From: an uncultured Bacteroidota bacterium
GTDB lineage: Bacteria > Bacteroidota > Bacteroidia > Chitinophagales > Chitinophagaceae
Assembly (NCBI GenBank): GCA_903829015.1
Contig: CAIKOJ010000051.1
Location: 62,001 to 126,000, forward strand
Reading direction: 5' to 3'
DNA: 64,000 nt
The notes under the pieces are model-generated. The model had not been told where the DNA came from and ran no database searches. It worked only from the letters and a program-made list of their open reading frames with translations. How positions within the stretch are numbered: position 1 is the stretch's first letter; each line of letters opens with the position of its first letter. Position numbers and translations under genes: made by a program. Positions 33,428 through 41,432 of this stretch are shown in pieces.

Positions 33428-34432
33428 ATGAGCGTAATACGCAATAACTGGAGTCGGGAGGAAATTAAGGGAATCTACGAAACGCCTTTGCTGGAGCTGA
33501 TCTTATCTGCGGCTGATGTACATAGAGCTCACCATAAATTTGGCGAAGTACAAATAAGCAGCCTGCTTTCCATAAAAACAGGAGGATGTTCGGAAGACTG
33601 CGGATACTGCCCTCAGGCAGCAAGGTATAATACAGGAGTAGGTGTGCAGGCACTGATGAAAGTAGATGAAGTTGTAAAGGCTGCCAAAAATGCCAAGGCG
33701 GGCGGAGCTTCGAGGTTTTGTATGGGGGCTGCCTGGAGGGAAGTACGTGATAACTCTGATTTTGACAGAGTACTGGATATGGTAAAAGAGGTGAATAAAC
33801 TGAATATGGAAGTTTGCTGTACGCTGGGTATGGTAAATGAATATCAGGCTAAAAGACTTGCTGAAGCAGGATTGTACGCATACAATCATAACGTTGATAC
33901 ATCTGAGGAACATTATGGTGATGTGATCACTACCCGCACATACGATGACCGGCTTAACACTCTTGAAAATGTGAGAAAGGCTGGAATTTCGGTTTGCAGC
34001 GGCGGAATAATAGGAATGGGTGAAACAGGTTCTGACAGAATAGCCATGCTACAAACGCTCGCTAATTTGCCGGAACACCCCGGATCTGTGCCTATTAATG
34101 CGTTAGTGCCGGTAACAGGTACGCCAATGGGAGAGAGGGGTAGGGTATCTTTTGATGAACTCGTGAGAATGATCGCCACTGCGCGCATATTGATGCCTAA
34201 TTCGGCAGTGAGGTTGTCGGCAGGACGGCTGGAACTTTCTATTGCCGAGCAGGCATTGTGTTTCATGGCAGGAGCCAACTCGATCTTTGCCGGAGACAAA
34301 TTGCTGACAACACCTAACCCTGCATACAATGCAGATATGGAGATGTTCGGTATTTTGGGACTTACTCCGAAAGAAGCATTTGCAGACGGGATTCCCGTCC
34401 AAAAGCAACTATTGCAGCATGAACAGGGTTGA
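33428..34432 (+). CDS. bioB: Biotin synthase
   Basis: A 334-residue radical-SAM enzyme that inserts sulphur into dethiobiotin, the last biotin step. The CxxxCxxC cluster motif is C54, C58, C61 in [33 protein letters not shown] and AGRLELS are further family motifs; the last of these holds the arginine (SAGR) that ligates the [2Fe-2S] cluster. The 3' end overlaps bioF by 14 nt, so translation is probably coupled. The gene is transcribed away from the histidine kinase. No BirA-type operator could be recognised in the 202-nt upstream gap. Confidence 0.97.
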
Positions 34433-35543
34433 GCAACTGCTGCAGCATAAATTAGCAGAACGAGCTAATGCCGGCAATCTCAGGCAACTGAGTTTGAATA
34501 AGGCATCGGTAGATTTTTACTCGAATGACTATCTGGGTTTAGCCACTTTGGGATATCAGACAGATGCTTCTAGCCACTCCAGTAGATATTTGATGTCGGG
34601 ATCAACCGGATCGCGGCTGTTGTCGGGGAACAGCCCGGAGGCAGAAGCATTGGAAAAAACAATAGCAGACTTCCACAGAGCTCAATCAGCACTGTTGTTT
34701 AACTCAGGTTATGACGCAAATACGGGATTGATTCCATGTATTACAGACAGGCACACAACGATACTATGCGATGAACTATGCCATGCCAGTATTTTAGATG
34801 GGATAAGGCTTAGCCAGAGCAGCAAGCGATACAAATTCAGGCATAATAATATTGAGGACCTGGCGAAGAAACTAAAGAAATTTCAAGACGGAACAGTGGT
34901 TGTAATTGTGGAGTCAGTTTATTCGATGGATGGGGATACTGCACCACTGGGTGAAATAACAACATTATGCAATGACCACAATGCACAGCTTATAGTTGAT
35001 GAAGCGCATGCAACCGGAGTGTTTGGAGAAAAAGGAGAAGGGTTAGTCTGTGCCATGGGTCTGGAAGACCGGGTATTTGCAAGGGTGCATACCTTTGGCA
35101 AGGCATTAGGTTGCCATGGAGCGGCGGTAGTGGGGAGCGATCTGCTAAAGCAATACCTGATCAATTTTGCAAGACCATTTATATATACGACGGCATTGCC
35201 GATGCACTCAGTCTGTGCAATAGACAATGCATACAGGTACCTTTCGTCAGCTGAGTTTAACAACCAATCATTGCGTGAATTGATCACGTATTTCAGGACA
35301 AAGATATTAAAGGCTGGAGGCAGCGGATGGCTGGACAGCGAGAGCGCCATACAGGCAATGATAATTGGTGATAATTTGCGGTGCCGGTCAATTGCCGGGA
35401 AAATACAGCACGCAGGTTTTCAAGTAAACCCAATATTATATCCTACGGTATCAAAAGGGTCGGAACGACTAAGAATATGCCTGCACACATTCAATACCAC
35501 CGAACAAATAGACGGGCTATTTGAAGTAATTGCTCAGGCGTAG
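34419..35543 (+). CDS. bioF: 8-amino-7-oxononanoate synthase
   Basis: A 374-residue alpha-oxoamine synthase that condenses pimeloyl thioester with alanine, the first ring-building step of biotin synthesis. The PLP lysine is K228 in [13 protein letters not shown], and the PLP-pyridine aspartate is D194 in VDEAHATG. The start ATG 34419 lies inside the bioB 3' end (14-nt overlap), and the protein from here matches the family opening ([20 protein letters not shown]). The frame can be extended upstream within bioB, which is not meaningful. It converges on the cyclase gene, with stops only 6 nt apart. Confidence 0.95.
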
Positions 35544-35549
35544 GCGTCA

Positions 35550-37082
35550 CTAAGAGACATAGTACATATCTATGCTTCCTTTGTTCTTCGCTTCTACTTT
35601 ACCCCTGTAAATACATGGGTATTTATCTTTGATGAGCTCGTAAGTGGACGCAGAGATATTAATTTTTCCTTCTTCGCTATTTTGTTCCATGCGTGCAGCA
35701 ATGTTCACGGTATCGCCCCAAATGTCGTAAGAAAATTTTCTCACCCCTACTATGCCTGCAACCACCTCACCGCTATTGATACCAATACGCATGCTGAAAG
35801 TGCCTTTTCCAAGTTCTTTCTTCCTTTTCAGCATAAATTCATTAATTTCCTTAGCCGCGGAAACAACATCCGCTGCATGATTGGGGTTGGCAATTGGCAG
35901 TCCGGAAACCGCCATATATGCGTCACCTACAGTTTTTATTTTTTCGATGTGGTACTTGCCAAGAATTCCGTCAAATGCCTTGAAACATACATGCAACTCA
36001 CCTACCAGTTGTTGCGGTGTCATAGATTCGGCGACCGAAGTAAAGCTTACAAAGTCGGTGAACAAGACAGTAACATTGTGAAAATGTTTTGCGTCGGCGA
36101 ATCCTTTTTCCATGAGTTCTTCAGCCACTTCCTGAGGGAGGATATTCAACAAAAGCTCTTCAGACCTTTTCTTCTCTTTTGTAAGGGCGAGATTGGACTT
36201 CTTCTGCATATGGAAGCTCCTGAAAATAAGAACGGAAATGACCACCATCGCTATTATTCCAAAGATGTAGAATATGCGTTCTTTTTTTCTTTGCTCCAGC
36301 AACTCGTTCGTCATTTTCAGTTCGTTTTCCTTCAAAGCCAGATTTGCAGCTTGCAAAGCTTTTTCTTCCTCAGCCACGTTCAATTGCTTTTCTTTTTCCT
36401 CGGCATAGGATTTTTCCATTGTAAGGTCGGTTTGCGTCTTCTGCAGTGCTTTATTTACATTGGCTTTTTCTTTTTCTGATTTAGAGAGGTTTTGATTGGT
36501 AGCATCGAGTTGCTGCTGATTTTGTGACAGTTTTTGATTTGACTCGTTCAGCTGCTGCTGGTATAGTTCCTGCTGCTTTTTAATAGAATCCAATCTCCTG
36601 GCATTTTCATACTCTATATTTTTCTTATCGAGATCATTGTTCTTTTTGGACGCAAAAATGCCATTATTCAGTTCAAGAATTTTCTTTTTTGTAACAACAA
36701 CATCGCCATACTTTCCGGCTTTAGATTGTGCGTTCTGCATAGTTTTGTAGGCCGCAATCATCTGGTCTTTATCGCCGGCATCCCTGGCTGCCTCAACAGA
36801 CTTATTTGCGTAGTCGATCGCTTTGTTAAGGTTTTCTTTTTTTTCTGCGGAGATATTGCTATTTGGTTGAATTTCGTCGCGTGAGAACCTGGCTATATTG
36901 AGGTATAGTCCGGCAATTGTGCCATAAGTATGCCCTAAAGTTTTCCTATCGCGCTGGCTACCTGCAGCCCTCAATTCATTGTCTAGTTTCTTTGAAAGTT
37001 CTGAAAAACTAACACCTTCATCCTGCGCCAGGAGGAACTGAGGAAGCAAAAGCAGAAAGGCTAAAAACAATGATTTGTTCAC
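35550..37082 (-). CDS. Membrane class III adenylate cyclase with periplasmic helical region
   Basis: From GTG 37082 the product has 510 residues. It has a signal peptide MNKSLFLAFLLLLPQFLLAQ, a TPR-like helical region (about 30-140) and a long glutamine-rich coiled coil (160-268). One membrane helix (270-287) and a class III cyclase domain (about 330-510) follow. Metal-binding D343 and D387 (VLFTDFVSFT, KTVGDAYM) are present. The specificity pair K383 and D453 (YDIWGD) points to ATP rather than GTP, and the catalytic N460/R464 are in place. The start is uncertain: the frame is open upstream via TTG, but the signal peptide begins at the GTG. It lies between the two biotin blocks on the opposite strand. 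Confidence 0.9.
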   Translation of the reverse strand: MNKSLFLAFLLLLPQFLLAQDEGVSFSELSKKLDNELRAAGSQRDRKTLGHTYGTIAGLYLNIARFSRDEIQPNSNISAEKKENLNKAIDYANKSVEAARDAGDKDQMIAAYKTMQNAQSKAGKYGDVVVTKKKILELNNGIFASKKNNDLDKKNIEYENARRLDSIKKQQELYQQQLNESNQKLSQNQQQLDATNQNLSKSEKEKANVNKALQKTQTDLTMEKSYAEEKEKQLNVAEEEKALQAANLALKENELKMTNELLEQRKKERIFYIFGIIAMVVISVLIFRSFHMQKKSNLALTKEKKRSEELLLNILPQEVAEELMEKGFADAKHFHNVTVLFTDFVSFTSVAESMTPQQLVGELHVCFKAFDGILGKYHIEKIKTVGDAYMAVSGLPIANPNHAADVVSAAKEINEFMLKRKKELGKGTFSMRIGINSGEVVAGIVGVRKFSYDIWGDTVNIAARMEQNSEEGKINISASTYELIKDKYPCIYRGKVEAKNKGSIDMYYVS

Positions 37083-37381
37083 GACAATAGTTGTTTTGAA
37101 AGTGATTATATATTTTGAGTAAATGCGAAGAAAATACAAAATTCTTATCTCGTTGTTATTAACAGCAATTATAATAAAAGTTAAGCAATATACCGTAAAT
37201 ATTAAATGATTTCAAATCAATATCCTATAGAATTCCAAATGCATAGATAAATATTAGTTATAACGTAAGTTGTGTGTCTTTTTGACTCGAATTTGATAAG
37301 CTGATTGCACATACATTTGCAATGATTTTAGAAAGATTAAAACGGTCTGTTGGTAACAGGAACCAAAGGAAGTAAATTCAG

Positions 37382-38008
37382 GTGCACAACTCCATTGCAA
37401 TAGCGGGTATTCATACGGGAATTGGGAAAACGATTGTTTCTGCAGTAATAGCAGAGGCTTTGGGGGCGGAATATTGGAAACCTGTACAAGCCGGGATCAA
37501 AGAAAGAGATGCTGATCTTTTGCGCGTATTGCTAACAAATGGCGAGCAACGGGTACACGAAGAGGCTGTACTGTTATCCCAACCGTTATCGCCGCATACT
37601 GCAGCTGCCGCTGACAAAGTAGTGATCGACTACAAGCAATTCATGTGGCCGAATACACAAAACAAACTGATCGTTGAAACTGCCGGTGGGATATTATCGC
37701 CGATGTACAATGATTGCACGATGGCTGATTTCATAACGCATTACAAACTGCCGACTCTGCTGGTTTCGTTAAACTATCTAGGCAGCATCAACCATACTTT
37801 GATGACCATTGAAGTAATGAAAAGCCGGGGCATACAATTACTTGGTATTATTATGAACGGGCTGGAGAATGAATCTTCGGAATCGTTTATAACTGAATCC
37901 AGCCGGGTGCCTATTTTGGCGCGAATACCATTTATCAAAGAGTTGAATAATGAAGCAGTGAAGAGAACAGCCTTACAATTGAAACCAATATTATCTAAAT
38001 TACTTTGA
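37382..38008 (+). CDS. bioD: Dethiobiotin synthetase
   Basis: A 208-residue P-loop enzyme that closes the ureido ring of dethiobiotin with ATP and CO2. The P-loop GIHTGIGKT is at 9-17, and the second motif is VETAGGILSP (family VEGAGG). It starts with GTG at 37382, preceded by AAAGGA, because no ATG lies before the P-loop. Its stop is 4 nt before the bioA ATG, so the two are cotranscribed. The 299-nt region before it is shared with the divergent cyclase gene. Confidence 0.95.
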   Translation: MHNSIAIAGIHTGIGKTIVSAVIAEALGAEYWKPVQAGIKERDADLLRVLLTNGEQRVHEEAVLLSQPLSPHTAAAADKVVIDYKQFMWPNTQNKLIVETAGGILSPMYNDCTMADFITHYKLPTLLVSLNYLGSINHTLMTIEVMKSRGIQLLGIIMNGLENESSESFITESSRVPILARIPFIKELNNEAVKRTALQLKPILSKLL

Positions 38009-38012
38009 ACAG

Positions 38013-39284
38013 ATGCCAACAATAAGGGAACGAGATAGTAAAGTAGTGTGGCATCCGTATACACCCATGAAGACCTGGCCTGAGGCTATAGCGATCGTAA
38101 AAGGGGAAGGATTATACCTGATAGATGAAGACGGGAAGAAATACATGGATGCTATTTCATCGTGGTGGGTGAATCTGCATGGGCATGCAAACCAATATAT
38201 AGCTCAAAAAGTGAGTGAGCAGGCAGCTGCACTGGAGCATTGCATATTTGCGGGATTCACACATGAACCCGCTGTGCGTCTTGCAGAACGATTGCTTCAT
38301 ATTTTGCCAGAGGGAATGGAGAAAATATTTTATTCTGACAACGGATCTACTGCGGTGGAAGTAGCCATAAAAATGTCGTTGCAGTATTGGAGTAACAAAG
38401 GAGTTAATAAAAAGAAACTCGTGGCACTGCAGCATGCCTATCATGGCGATACGTTCGGAGCCATGTCGGTAAGTGAAAGAAGTATTTTTACGGAGGCATT
38501 TAAGGAACAGTTATTTGACGTGGCGTTTATACCCTTCCCGGTTATAGGAAATGAAAGGAATAGTTTGGATGAGTTAGAGCGACAGTTGCTGACTGGTGAT
38601 GTGGCGGCCCTTATTGTTGAGCCGCTGGTGCAGGGCGCATCGGGCATGAATATGTACAGCCCTGAAATATTGGAAGGATTATTTGAGCTATGCAGGAAAT
38701 ATAATGCGCTTATTATAGCTGACGAAGTAATGACCGGATTTGGAAGAACAGGACCACTGTTTGCGTGTGGGCATATTTCTGTGTCACCAGATATCGTTTG
38801 TTTATCGAAAGGACTTACAGGTGGTGCTATGCCACTGGGGGTTACTGCCTGCACAAAAGATGTTTTTAATGCGTTTTATGACGACGACCGCATGAAAATG
38901 CTTTACCACGGTCATTCGTTTACTGCAAACCCTACAATTTGTGCCGCAGCACTTGCAAGTCTCGACCTTCTATTGACAGATGACTGTGCCGCGAGCAGGT
39001 TGCGAATTGCTGCATCGCATGCAGCGTTTGCCTCGGAAATAGATGGTCACAGGATGGTGGCTGCGGTAAGGCAAACAGGCACTATCATTGCACTGGAACT
39101 GATGACGCATGAAAGTTCTTATCACCACTCACTGAGAGATACGCTGTATAAGTTCTTTCTGGACAAAGGGATTATCATGAGGCCATTGGGTAATATTATT
39201 TACGTTCTTCCTCCGTATTGTATTACAAATGAAGAGCTGCAATACATTTATAGTTGCATAAGAGAATTGCTGGAAACGTTGTAG
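38013..39284 (+). CDS. bioA: Adenosylmethionine-8-amino-7-oxononanoate aminotransferase
   Basis: A 423-residue class III PLP aminotransferase that uses SAM as amino donor to make 7,8-diaminopelargonate. The opening WHPYTPMKTWPEA is typical of BioA. SSWWVNLHGHAN, the PLP aspartate D237 in IADEVMTGFGRTG and the PLP lysine K266 in LSKGLTGGAMPLG are visible. Start ATG 38013 is 4 nt after the bioD stop. The ferritin-like gene follows 32 nt downstream, in the same direction and probably in the same transcript. Confidence 0.97.
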   Translation: MPTIRERDSKVVWHPYTPMKTWPEAIAIVKGEGLYLIDEDGKKYMDAISSWWVNLHGHANQYIAQKVSEQAAALEHCIFAGFTHEPAVRLAERLLHILPEGMEKIFYSDNGSTAVEVAIKMSLQYWSNKGVNKKKLVALQHAYHGDTFGAMSVSERSIFTEAFKEQLFDVAFIPFPVIGNERNSLDELERQLLTGDVAALIVEPLVQGASGMNMYSPEILEGLFELCRKYNALIIADEVMTGFGRTGPLFACGHISVSPDIVCLSKGLTGGAMPLGVTACTKDVFNAFYDDDRMKMLYHGHSFTANPTICAAALASLDLLLTDDCAASRLRIAASHAAFASEIDGHRMVAAVRQTGTIIALELMTHESSYHHSLRDTLYKFFLDKGIIMRPLGNIIYVLPPYCITNEELQYIYSCIRELLETL

Positions 39285-39316: not shown

Positions 39317-39940
39317 ATGACCGAAATAAGATTCAGAAAAATAATTGAGGAGATCGTTTCATCGGGTGAAGCGCATGCCAAGTGGCTGAACAGCTTATCA
39401 ATGATGGAAAATACGGGAGCCAGAAAGATATCGAAATATGAACACCCGATATATACAGGCATTATAGTACTGAAGCATGCCGCTGAGGAAGCGCGCCATG
39501 CCTATTATCTTAAGAAGCAAATAAGTAAGCTATCAAAAGAGGCTTGCCCGGATTTTTCACATCCTTATCTGCTGGCACCGGTTGAAAGCCATCATTACCT
39601 GAATATGCTTGACGTGGAAGCGTGCCGTTTCCTGAAGCGAAAACTAAATCTGGAAGGGAGGGCATTGAAACATGGTGCGTATCTGCTGGTGACATATTCA
39701 ATTGAGGTGAGGGCTGATATGCTTTATGGGATCTATCAGGAAGTGCTGACGAGCAAAGGATCGAAAGTAAATGTGAAATCTATTATTGCGGAAGAAGAAG
39801 GGCATCTGGAAGAAATGCAAAAGATGTTGGAAGTTTTCCATCCGGAATGGAGACAACTGGCCGATGAAATGTGTGCCAATGAACAAAGACTTTTTGAGCA
39901 TTGGGTAAGTGCAATTGGTAAAGAGTTGGGGATACAGTAG
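39317..39940 (+). CDS. Ferritin-like di-iron protein, last gene of the bioD-bioA unit
   Basis: A 207-residue all-helical cytoplasmic protein. The ligand set of a four-helix-bundle di-iron site can be read: E18 (helix 1), E58 and H61 in EEARHAYY, E130 in YSIEVRAD, and E160 and H163 in EEEGHLEEM. That is E, ExxH, E, ExxH, as in ferritin-like oxidases and MiaE/AurF-type oxygenases. The spacing differs from bacterioferritin, so storage is less likely than an oxygen-dependent reaction. It starts 32 nt after bioA in the same direction. This window holds no pimelate-forming gene (bioC/bioH), so a role in supplying the bioF substrate is conceivable, but that is inference. Its 3' end touches the convergent TPR gene. 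Confidence 0.75.
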   Translation: MTEIRFRKIIEEIVSSGEAHAKWLNSLSMMENTGARKISKYEHPIYTGIIVLKHAAEEARHAYYLKKQISKLSKEACPDFSHPYLLAPVESHHYLNMLDVEACRFLKRKLNLEGRALKHGAYLLVTYSIEVRADMLYGIYQEVLTSKGSKVNVKSIIAEEEGHLEEMQKMLEVFHPEWRQLADEMCANEQRLFEHWVSAIGKELGIQ

Positions 39941-39941
39941 T

Positions 39942-41432
39942 TTATTTTCCTTCCAGTCTGTTAATGCCTGCTTTGGCCTGCTGGTCAATTGAATTTTGAA
40001 AATCGTGGTAGGGCATCTGCAGGCACTCTTTGTAGCGTTGCATTGCAGGTGTAGGTTTATTGCTGCGCTCGTACATTTTCCCCATTTGCAACGCGGCTCT
40101 GGCAGCGAATTGTTCGTGTCGTTCTTTTCCGGTGTTGATTGTGTACTGATAATACTCTATAGCTTTCGAAAAGTTATCTGTTTCTTCGTAGATGCGGCCC
40201 ATCCTGAAGTAGTATTCGGCTTTGTCGGTGGGATTGCTGAGCACATTATTGTCAATTGTTGCAAGCGTTGAAAATGCTTTATTATAGTAACCAGCCTCGA
40301 TGAGCAATCTTGACCTTAATAGTATCTTGTTAGGCCATATGCCAGTCTCCACGAACTTTTGGGCCTGTTTGTCGGCATCTATCCTGGCCGTACCATTTTT
40401 GCTGATCTGACTACGGCAATATGAAGCCTTGCTGAGATCACCAGCCAGGTACCAGATCAACGACATTCTCTGCCAGCAATCTTTTATGTATAGGTCGCTT
40501 TTATTTTTTTTCAGGTAGCTGTTGAAATAATAAGCGGACGCCGTATCGCATTGGTTATAAAGCGCACAGCCCATTTGGTAGTCGAAGACGGGATACAATC
40601 CGAACGAGGCGTCGACTGAAGCAACTTTGAGTATTTGAATGGCCTCGTCTGACTTTCTGAGATCAAGTGCGAGGTTGGCTTTCACATAGGTATTGAGTAG
40701 GTTGTTGTTTGTGGAGAAGCTTTTGCTGTTGAGGAAATCCCATACTTCTTTTTGCTCCGGTAACAGGTAGAAGCGGGTATAAAGAGCATACAACACGGTT
40801 TCGGCATAAAAAGGGTCGTTGTTGTTGTGTGATCCAATAAACGCATTCAGTTTGCCGGTGCCATTTCTTACATTGCCTTTCATGCCAAAAATGGAAGCCA
40901 ACCATTTGTAGTTGCCGGGAAGTGAGCCTACGACCGCCTCTTCAAGACCGAAGAAGGTGTTGTTGTATTCGAATTGAGGAAATAATTTCTGGTTTTCCTT
41001 TAGCAGAGCAAAGGACTTACGGAAATAGTTGGCGGTATTATACTGCTCGCCAAACCGCATATTGATGATAGCCCAGTGCAGGTAAACGCCTGCTTTACAG
41101 AACCGGTACCAGGGAGAAGACTGATCGCCTTTATCGAGGAGGTCGATATGCTCGCTGAGGTGGTCTGCCCGTTGTTTTAAATCAGACTTGCTGCAGTTGA
41201 GCAAGAGGAGGATACAATCTTCGTAATCTGAGATATATACTGCCAACAGATTGTATGGGTCGGCTTTTATCTCATTGAGCAGGCAGGAGCGCGCATCTGC
41301 AATGTGCAGAGATAGGTAGTGCTGATATGCCTTTCTGCAATTTTCGGTATAGGTGTAGTGATAATCAGGTGCTGAAGCGCTACACCTGATGACGCAGAAT
41401 ACAAACAAAATTGCCAGCAGGTATCGCTTCAT
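39942..41432 (-). CDS. Secreted or periplasmic TPR protein
   Basis: A 496-residue protein with signal peptide MKRYLLAILFVFCVIRCSASA. The C-terminal third has clear TPR-like helices (AEYYFRMGRIYEETDNFSKAIEYYQY; RAALQMGKMYERSNKPTPAMQRYKECL). The N-terminal part is also helical repeat. Typical partners are other envelope proteins, but nothing specific is suggested. Its stop lies 1 nt after that of the ferritin-like gene on the other strand. It is followed upstream by lysC on the same strand (45-nt gap). Confidence 0.78.
   Translation of the reverse strand: MKRYLLAILFVFCVIRCSASAPDYHYTYTENCRKAYQHYLSLHIADARSCLLNEIKADPYNLLAVYISDYEDCILLLLNCSKSDLKQRADHLSEHIDLLDKGDQSSPWYRFCKAGVYLHWAIINMRFGEQYNTANYFRKSFALLKENQKLFPQFEYNNTFFGLEEAVVGSLPGNYKWLASIFGMKGNVRNGTGKLNAFIGSHNNNDPFYAETVLYALYTRFYLLPEQKEVWDFLNSKSFSTNNNLLNTYVKANLALDLRKSDEAIQILKVASVDASFGLYPVFDYQMGCALYNQCDTASAYYFNSYLKKNKSDLYIKDCWQRMSLIWYLAGDLSKASYCRSQISKNGTARIDADKQAQKFVETGIWPNKILLRSRLLIEAGYYNKAFSTLATIDNNVLSNPTDKAEYYFRMGRIYEETDNFSKAIEYYQYTINTGKERHEQFAARAALQMGKMYERSNKPTPAMQRYKECLQMPYHDFQNSIDQQAKAGINRLEGK

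Follow-up and report, generated by a model that had tools for sequence, protein, structure and literature searches.

The open reading frame at positions 39317 to 39940 (+) is one of a group of biotin genes in the window, by which we mean the whole stretch of 64,000 nucleotides that was analysed. The genes of this region, and the basis on which each was assigned, are as follows.

33428 to 34432, + strand: bioB, biotin synthase (TIGR00433, 386.5 bits, cut-off 225)
34419 to 35543, + strand: bioF, KAPA synthase (best NCBIfam match bioF, below the cut-off at 341.5 against 426.45 bits)
35550 to 37139, - strand: opposite-strand gene of 529 codons between bioB-bioF and bioD-bioA-bioE (list of open reading frames)
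37382 to 38008, + strand: bioD, dethiobiotin synthase (TIGR00347, 115.4 bits, cut-off 83.3)
38013 to 39284, + strand: bioA, DAPA aminotransferase (TIGR00508, 551 bits, cut-off 405)
39317 to 39940, + strand: bioE, putative di-iron oxygenase of 207 amino acids with predicted ligands E31, E58, H61, E130, E160 and H163 (homologues, residues, predicted fold)
39942 to 41432, - strand: convergent gene 1 nt from the 3' end of bioE (list of open reading frames)

The stop codon of bioA ends at 39284 and bioE starts 32 nt further on in the same direction, as an earlier note on this DNA had described. The reading frame, with its ATG start and 207 codons for amino acids, is a genuine one in the window's list, and a chance open reading frame is ruled out by the 42 homologues that are 51-79% identical to its product. 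For the opposite-strand gene at 35550-37139 there was no NCBIfam match at E 1e-10; judged by eye from a motif, its product is presumably nucleotide-cyclase-like. Our genome collection yielded 498 relatives of bioE, of which 80 loci were kept, and with flanks of up to 6 kb a gene of this type was found at only one of them (L046), while a remnant of it is also seen in a decayed locus (L159, genome G032). Among the 17 bio-linked loci of at least 60% identity, 13 have the row bioB-bioF-bioD-bioA-bioE without the opposite-strand gene, and in three (L059, L076 and L100) a smaller part of the bio operon is visible. The upstream regions of bioB and bioD were found to share no exact words of 9-14 bases.

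The window protein does not match any Pfam or NCBIfam family over its cut-off. NCBIfam gave no matches, and those from Pfam were weak and below the cut-off (Rubrerythrin at 17.5 bits against 22.8, COQ7 and others), with P450 absent among them. One search of PDB sequences came back empty, and the sole match of another, a ribosomal protein at E 0.055, was read as chance.

A family for this protein is nevertheless suggested by the literature. BioE is a di-iron oxygenase, reported in 2025, which converts long-chain acyl-ACP or acyl-CoA to pimeloyl-ACP or pimeloyl-CoA, as set out in PMC12915131; that paper studies the enzymes of Elizabethkingia meningoseptica (EmBioE) and Chlamydia psittaci (CpBioE) and credits a PNAS 2025 paper (doi 10.1073/pnas.2501226122) with the discovery. 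It also states that BioE substitutes for BioC-BioH in E. coli and depends on six metal ligands, that each CpBioE molecule contains about two irons and that E. meningoseptica requires biotin once bioE is deleted. Chitinophagaceae are named there among several families with bioE, and the published search for the gene required identity above 40% across at least part of the protein exceeding 85% of EmBioE's length (PMC12915131). The earlier note had proposed, among several options, that a di-iron oxidase could make the pimeloyl precursor in the manner of BioI of Bacillus, which cleaves acyl-ACP and is itself a haem P450 of an unrelated protein family. This proposal coincides with the published activity of BioE, and the sequence, fold and context of the window protein all fit it, from which we infer its catalysis.

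Comparison of the residues named in that paper was informative. At an offset of +5, all 18 of the named EmBioE residues (the six ligands, and 12 others that belong to the tunnel or contact an inhibitor) are identical in the window protein. This match is one of published residue labels and spacing rather than of full-sequence alignment, and the residues that authors choose to name tend to be conserved ones. At an offset of -10, 15 of 17 named CpBioE residues are identical, the two mismatches being M30 and H195 in place of L40 and L205. In a control of 20,000 shuffles at 41 offsets each, the top score was 9 for EmBioE and 9 for CpBioE. We also built an alignment of 43 rows from the window protein and 42 homologues, which were chosen manually from loci L032-L125 so as to be diverse. 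Five of the ligands put forward in the earlier note, E58, H61, E130, E160 and H163, are invariant in 43/43 sequences. Its first ligand, E18, did not hold up, as position 18 is a glutamate in just 17 of the 43 whereas E31 is present in every one, and we therefore take E31 to be the first ligand. The successive distances between ligands are then 27, 3, 69, 30 and 3, which is the BioE pattern, the E31-E58 spacing of 27 residues being that of E26/E53 in EmBioE and E41/E68 in CpBioE in the published labels. Residues L27, Y122, I129 and L136 correspond to L22, Y117, I124 and L131 of EmBioE and are likewise found in all 43 sequences; alanine at any of these EmBioE tunnel residues is reported to abolish function (PMC12915131).

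The fold of the protein was predicted with AlphaFold2 from the 43-row alignment (mean pLDDT 94.7, pTM 0.91, eight helices), in line with the structure prediction proposed in the earlier note, and is a ferritin-like helical fold resembling aldehyde-deformylating oxygenase. With this model Foldseek found nothing at E <= 0.001, either in the PDB or among viral models, and the ranking was made with VIA-align on the top 1000 Foldseek chains. The best rows are two aldehyde-deformylating oxygenases, 8fhc (182 residues) and 5ux1 (176 residues), each with Z 16.4 at 2.6 A, with the tRNA hydroxylase MiaE (8afj; Z 15.7, 2.6 A over 174 residues) inside the tie margin, and sequence identity to the window protein in the top rows is 13-16%. 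Helical bundles score high in fold comparisons in general, and so the fold backs the BioE family without proving it.

The tie between these two enzymes is what might be expected if the window protein were some other di-iron hydroxylase or oxygenase, MiaE-like or aldehyde-deformylating, which had come to lie after bioA by chance. Against this, no MiaE or deformylating-oxygenase family appears among its Pfam and NCBIfam matches up to E = 1, and all 18 EmBioE residues are shared. Pfam contains a MiaE model, and the window protein differs from MiaE in the bio context of its gene as well. The aldehyde-deformylating oxygenases, also di-iron enzymes that use O2 and take a long hydrophobic chain, act on aldehydes and not at C7-C8 of acyl thioesters (PMC12915131).

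Genome context bears on the same question. In a phylum sample of 392 Bacteroidota genomes of at least 90% completeness, a profile search for bioE matched 15 genomes, all with an E of 2e-72 or lower, and none of the rest matched at 0.01. A single-sequence search (33 of 60 relatives matched, 0 of 23 genomes of other families) had pointed to a family limited to the genus and one neighbour, a view overturned by profile matches in three other families. The survey of neighbourhoods suggested in the earlier note bore out its expectation of a bio linkage: in each of the 14 genomes besides the window's own, bioE lies beside bioA or bioF, with bioA next upstream in four, bioF next downstream in nine and a convergent bioF in one. 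In the nine with bioE followed by bioF on the same strand, bioD follows bioF every time, and the bioE products at these loci share 51-56% identity with the window protein. Such constancy of bio neighbours outside the genus is hard to reconcile with chance placement. Among the 80 kept loci, the close ones are from Taibaiella, Flavipsychrobacter and Chitinophagaceae, and none of the 80 retained from the 498 relatives bears the name Elizabethkingia or Chlamydia. Bio genes are present in the fetched flanks at 46 of the 80, with bioA immediately upstream at 45, and gene order varies, being bioB-F-D-A-E in Taibaiella chishuiensis and bioE-F-D-B-A in Sphingobacterium faecium.

The occurrence of bioE follows that of the pathway. 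All 15 genomes with bioE have bioB, compared with 181 of the 392 overall. The earlier note had also suggested a survey for anti-correlation with bioC, and one was found: with the best six candidates scored per genome, a BioC match over the cut-off or of at least 126 bits occurs in none of the 15 bioE genomes, while 108 others reach 126 bits, 64 of them over the cut-off. This exclusion is significant among bioB-bearing genomes (Fisher p 7e-6) in a test that ignores kinship, and 103 of the 108 fall in two families. Partial BioC matches of 77-93 bits at E 1e-20 occur in 10 of the 15 bioE genomes, the window's own included; since all 60 relatives match BioC at E 1e-10 and none over the cut-off, we take these to be other methyltransferases.

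Within the genus, 30 of 35 genomes have bioE, bioA and bioB together. The exceptions are of several kinds. Two have bioE and bioB with no bioA match, namely G014 (65% complete) and G032, in which the locus is broken; in two, G025 (57% complete) and G029 (99%), bioE is missing while bioA and bioB are present; and G024 (98% complete) has none of the three. Fragments among the 32 bioE matches of the genus are limited to G023 and G032. In the G032 locus (L159, 3036-5596), bioB and bioF have one internal stop each, bioD and bioA are missing, and bioE has lost its first 148 codons and retains the last 59, which lie directly against what is left of the opposite-strand gene. These features suggest that a copy of the biotin locus seen in the window is decaying here; an assembly error is possible, and the two internal stops favour decay. 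Decay of bioE together with the bio locus is again unlike what a chance neighbour would be expected to show. Taking this with the evidence from residues, families and phylum-wide context, and allowing for the fold tie and for the frequent separation of bioE from bio genes within the genus, it seems very improbable that the protein is an unrelated di-iron enzyme. G029 counts against the BioE reading, as it has bioB, bioF, bioD and bioA but no bioE, BioW or BioC over the cut-off, and so bioE can be lost with the rest kept. In this genome an ordinary FabF over its cut-off and a gene judged by eye to be TetR-like lie convergent to bioA (L135, 6290-9997; L136, 5885-8653).

The window's own assembly, 92.6% complete, was searched for other routes to the pimeloyl moiety, the search covering BioC, BioW and P450. 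In the window the earlier note had seen no bioC, bioH or alternative, and it regarded a bioC plus a pimeloyl-ester hydrolase elsewhere in the genome, with no biotin phenotype on loss of the di-iron gene, as evidence against its proposal. The wider search gave the same picture: no BioC over the cut-off (best 76.6 bits against 184.95, over model positions 28-194 of 244), no P450 of the BioI type and no BioW, the last being absent from all 14 genomes searched for it, this one included.

For the phylum as a whole the position is more complex. Of the 181 bioB-bearing genomes, 71 lack both bioE and any BioC-like match of at least 126 bits, so that further routes to the pimeloyl moiety must exist in the phylum. 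We took the surroundings of bioB from 20 of these 71. In the seven stretches with bioA, five have a FabF-like beta-ketoacyl synthase in the biotin cluster, compared with 0 of the 13 others. These synthases are 41-65% identical to the L154 copy and lie as follows.

L151, 15307 to 16512: FabF-like synthase
L153, 11753 to 12913, - strand: FabF-like synthase
L154, 7077 to 8234: FabF-like synthase (152.6 bits against the FabF cut-off of 493.75)
L155, 13300 to 14322: FabF-like synthase
L157, 4842 to 6023: FabF-like synthase

In all loci examined, the only other matches to the L154 synthase are the ordinary FabF of L135 and a gene of L083, at 24-25% identity. The synthases of these clusters could be part of another pimeloyl route; a search of the literature on such a role found only the BioZ paper (PMC7645780). 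At L083 (2298-4222) the FabF-like gene, whose product shares 25% identity with the L154 synthase, begins some 75 nt downstream of an unlinked bioE on the same strand.

Several lines of evidence make it very probable that the gene at 39317-39940 codes for BioE and that this enzyme supplies the pimeloyl moiety for biotin synthesis in this bacterium: the shared residues, the fold prediction, the genome context, the co-occurrence with the pathway and the lack of a BioC over the cut-off, BioW or P450. By analogy with the homologues in PMC12915131 and from the conserved residues, its reaction can be inferred as follows. Two irons held on E31, E58, H61, E130, E160 and H163 in the helical bundle would activate O2, and a long acyl chain borne on ACP or CoA would enter a hydrophobic tunnel formed by L27, I38, Y94, L95, Y122, I129, L136, F193 and W196, with the omega end first if entry is as docking suggested in that paper. 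Oxidative cutting of the C7-C8 bond would then give pimeloyl-ACP or pimeloyl-CoA for transfer to BioF, and biotin would be built by BioF, BioA, BioD and BioB, all of which are coded within the same 6.6 kb.

The gene arrangement and its control differ between this system and those described. EmBioE resembles the window protein in all six ligands, 12 further named residues, the di-iron helical bundle and the bio neighbourhood, but its gene belongs to a bioEFD unit which, with a bioBA unit, is repressed by BioL (PMC12915131), whereas in the window bioE follows bioD-bioA, and bioB-bioF is split off. CpBioE comes from an organism for which the same paper reports no BioL. We identified no BioL linked to the window's bio genes. 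The sole GntR-domain gene over its cut-off in the genome (L134, 286-1725, - strand, contig C206) is not bio-linked and codes for a MocR-type protein of 479 amino acids whose best match, below the cut-off, is PdxR; it is a candidate for either BioL or PdxR.

It is within the window's own clade that bioE and the other bio genes are most often apart. Loci whose fetched flanks contain no bio genes make up 31 of the 48 at 60% identity or more, nine of these 31 having a flank of less than 3 kb on one side, against 3 of 32 below that identity, and a search of close relatives found bioA adjoining bioE at 7 of 30 same-genus loci with the window's own counted. Homologues scattered without bio genes had been regarded in the earlier note as evidence against a biotin role. 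As regards linkage such scatter does occur in the clade, yet 30 of the 32 bioE-bearing genomes of the genus retain bioA and bioB. One way to account for the unlinked loci is that the protein descends from a true BioE and has acquired a different or second role in the clade, such as the trimming of acyl chains for lipids, and the reported drain on long-chain fatty acids by excess EmBioE (PMC12915131) would be in keeping with this. We consider it highly unlikely, given that ligands and tunnel residues are unchanged even in the unlinked copies of the alignment, that nearly every genome with an unlinked copy keeps bioA and bioB, and that bioE adjoins bioA in the window. Rather less improbable, though still doubtful, is that in the Flavipsychrobacter-Taibaiella group BioE has separated from the bio operon and functions with no linked BioL repressor dedicated to it, even though unrestrained EmBioE is reported to drain long-chain lipids (PMC12915131). 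If this were true, the clade would use a tamer BioE, some other control or a second purpose for acyl-chain cutting.

Both the BioE family and its function are already published, as is its occurrence in Chitinophagaceae, and this protein is a further member. What is new here is the corrected first ligand, the data on co-occurrence and co-decay, and the separation of bioE from the operon inside a single genus. The presence of bioE with bioB, its lack of overlap with strong BioC matches and its decay jointly with the bio locus test BioE at the scale of genomes and independently of PMC12915131. A protein with no Pfam or NCBIfam family over the cut-off is now given a probable function, and its metal ligands are fixed.
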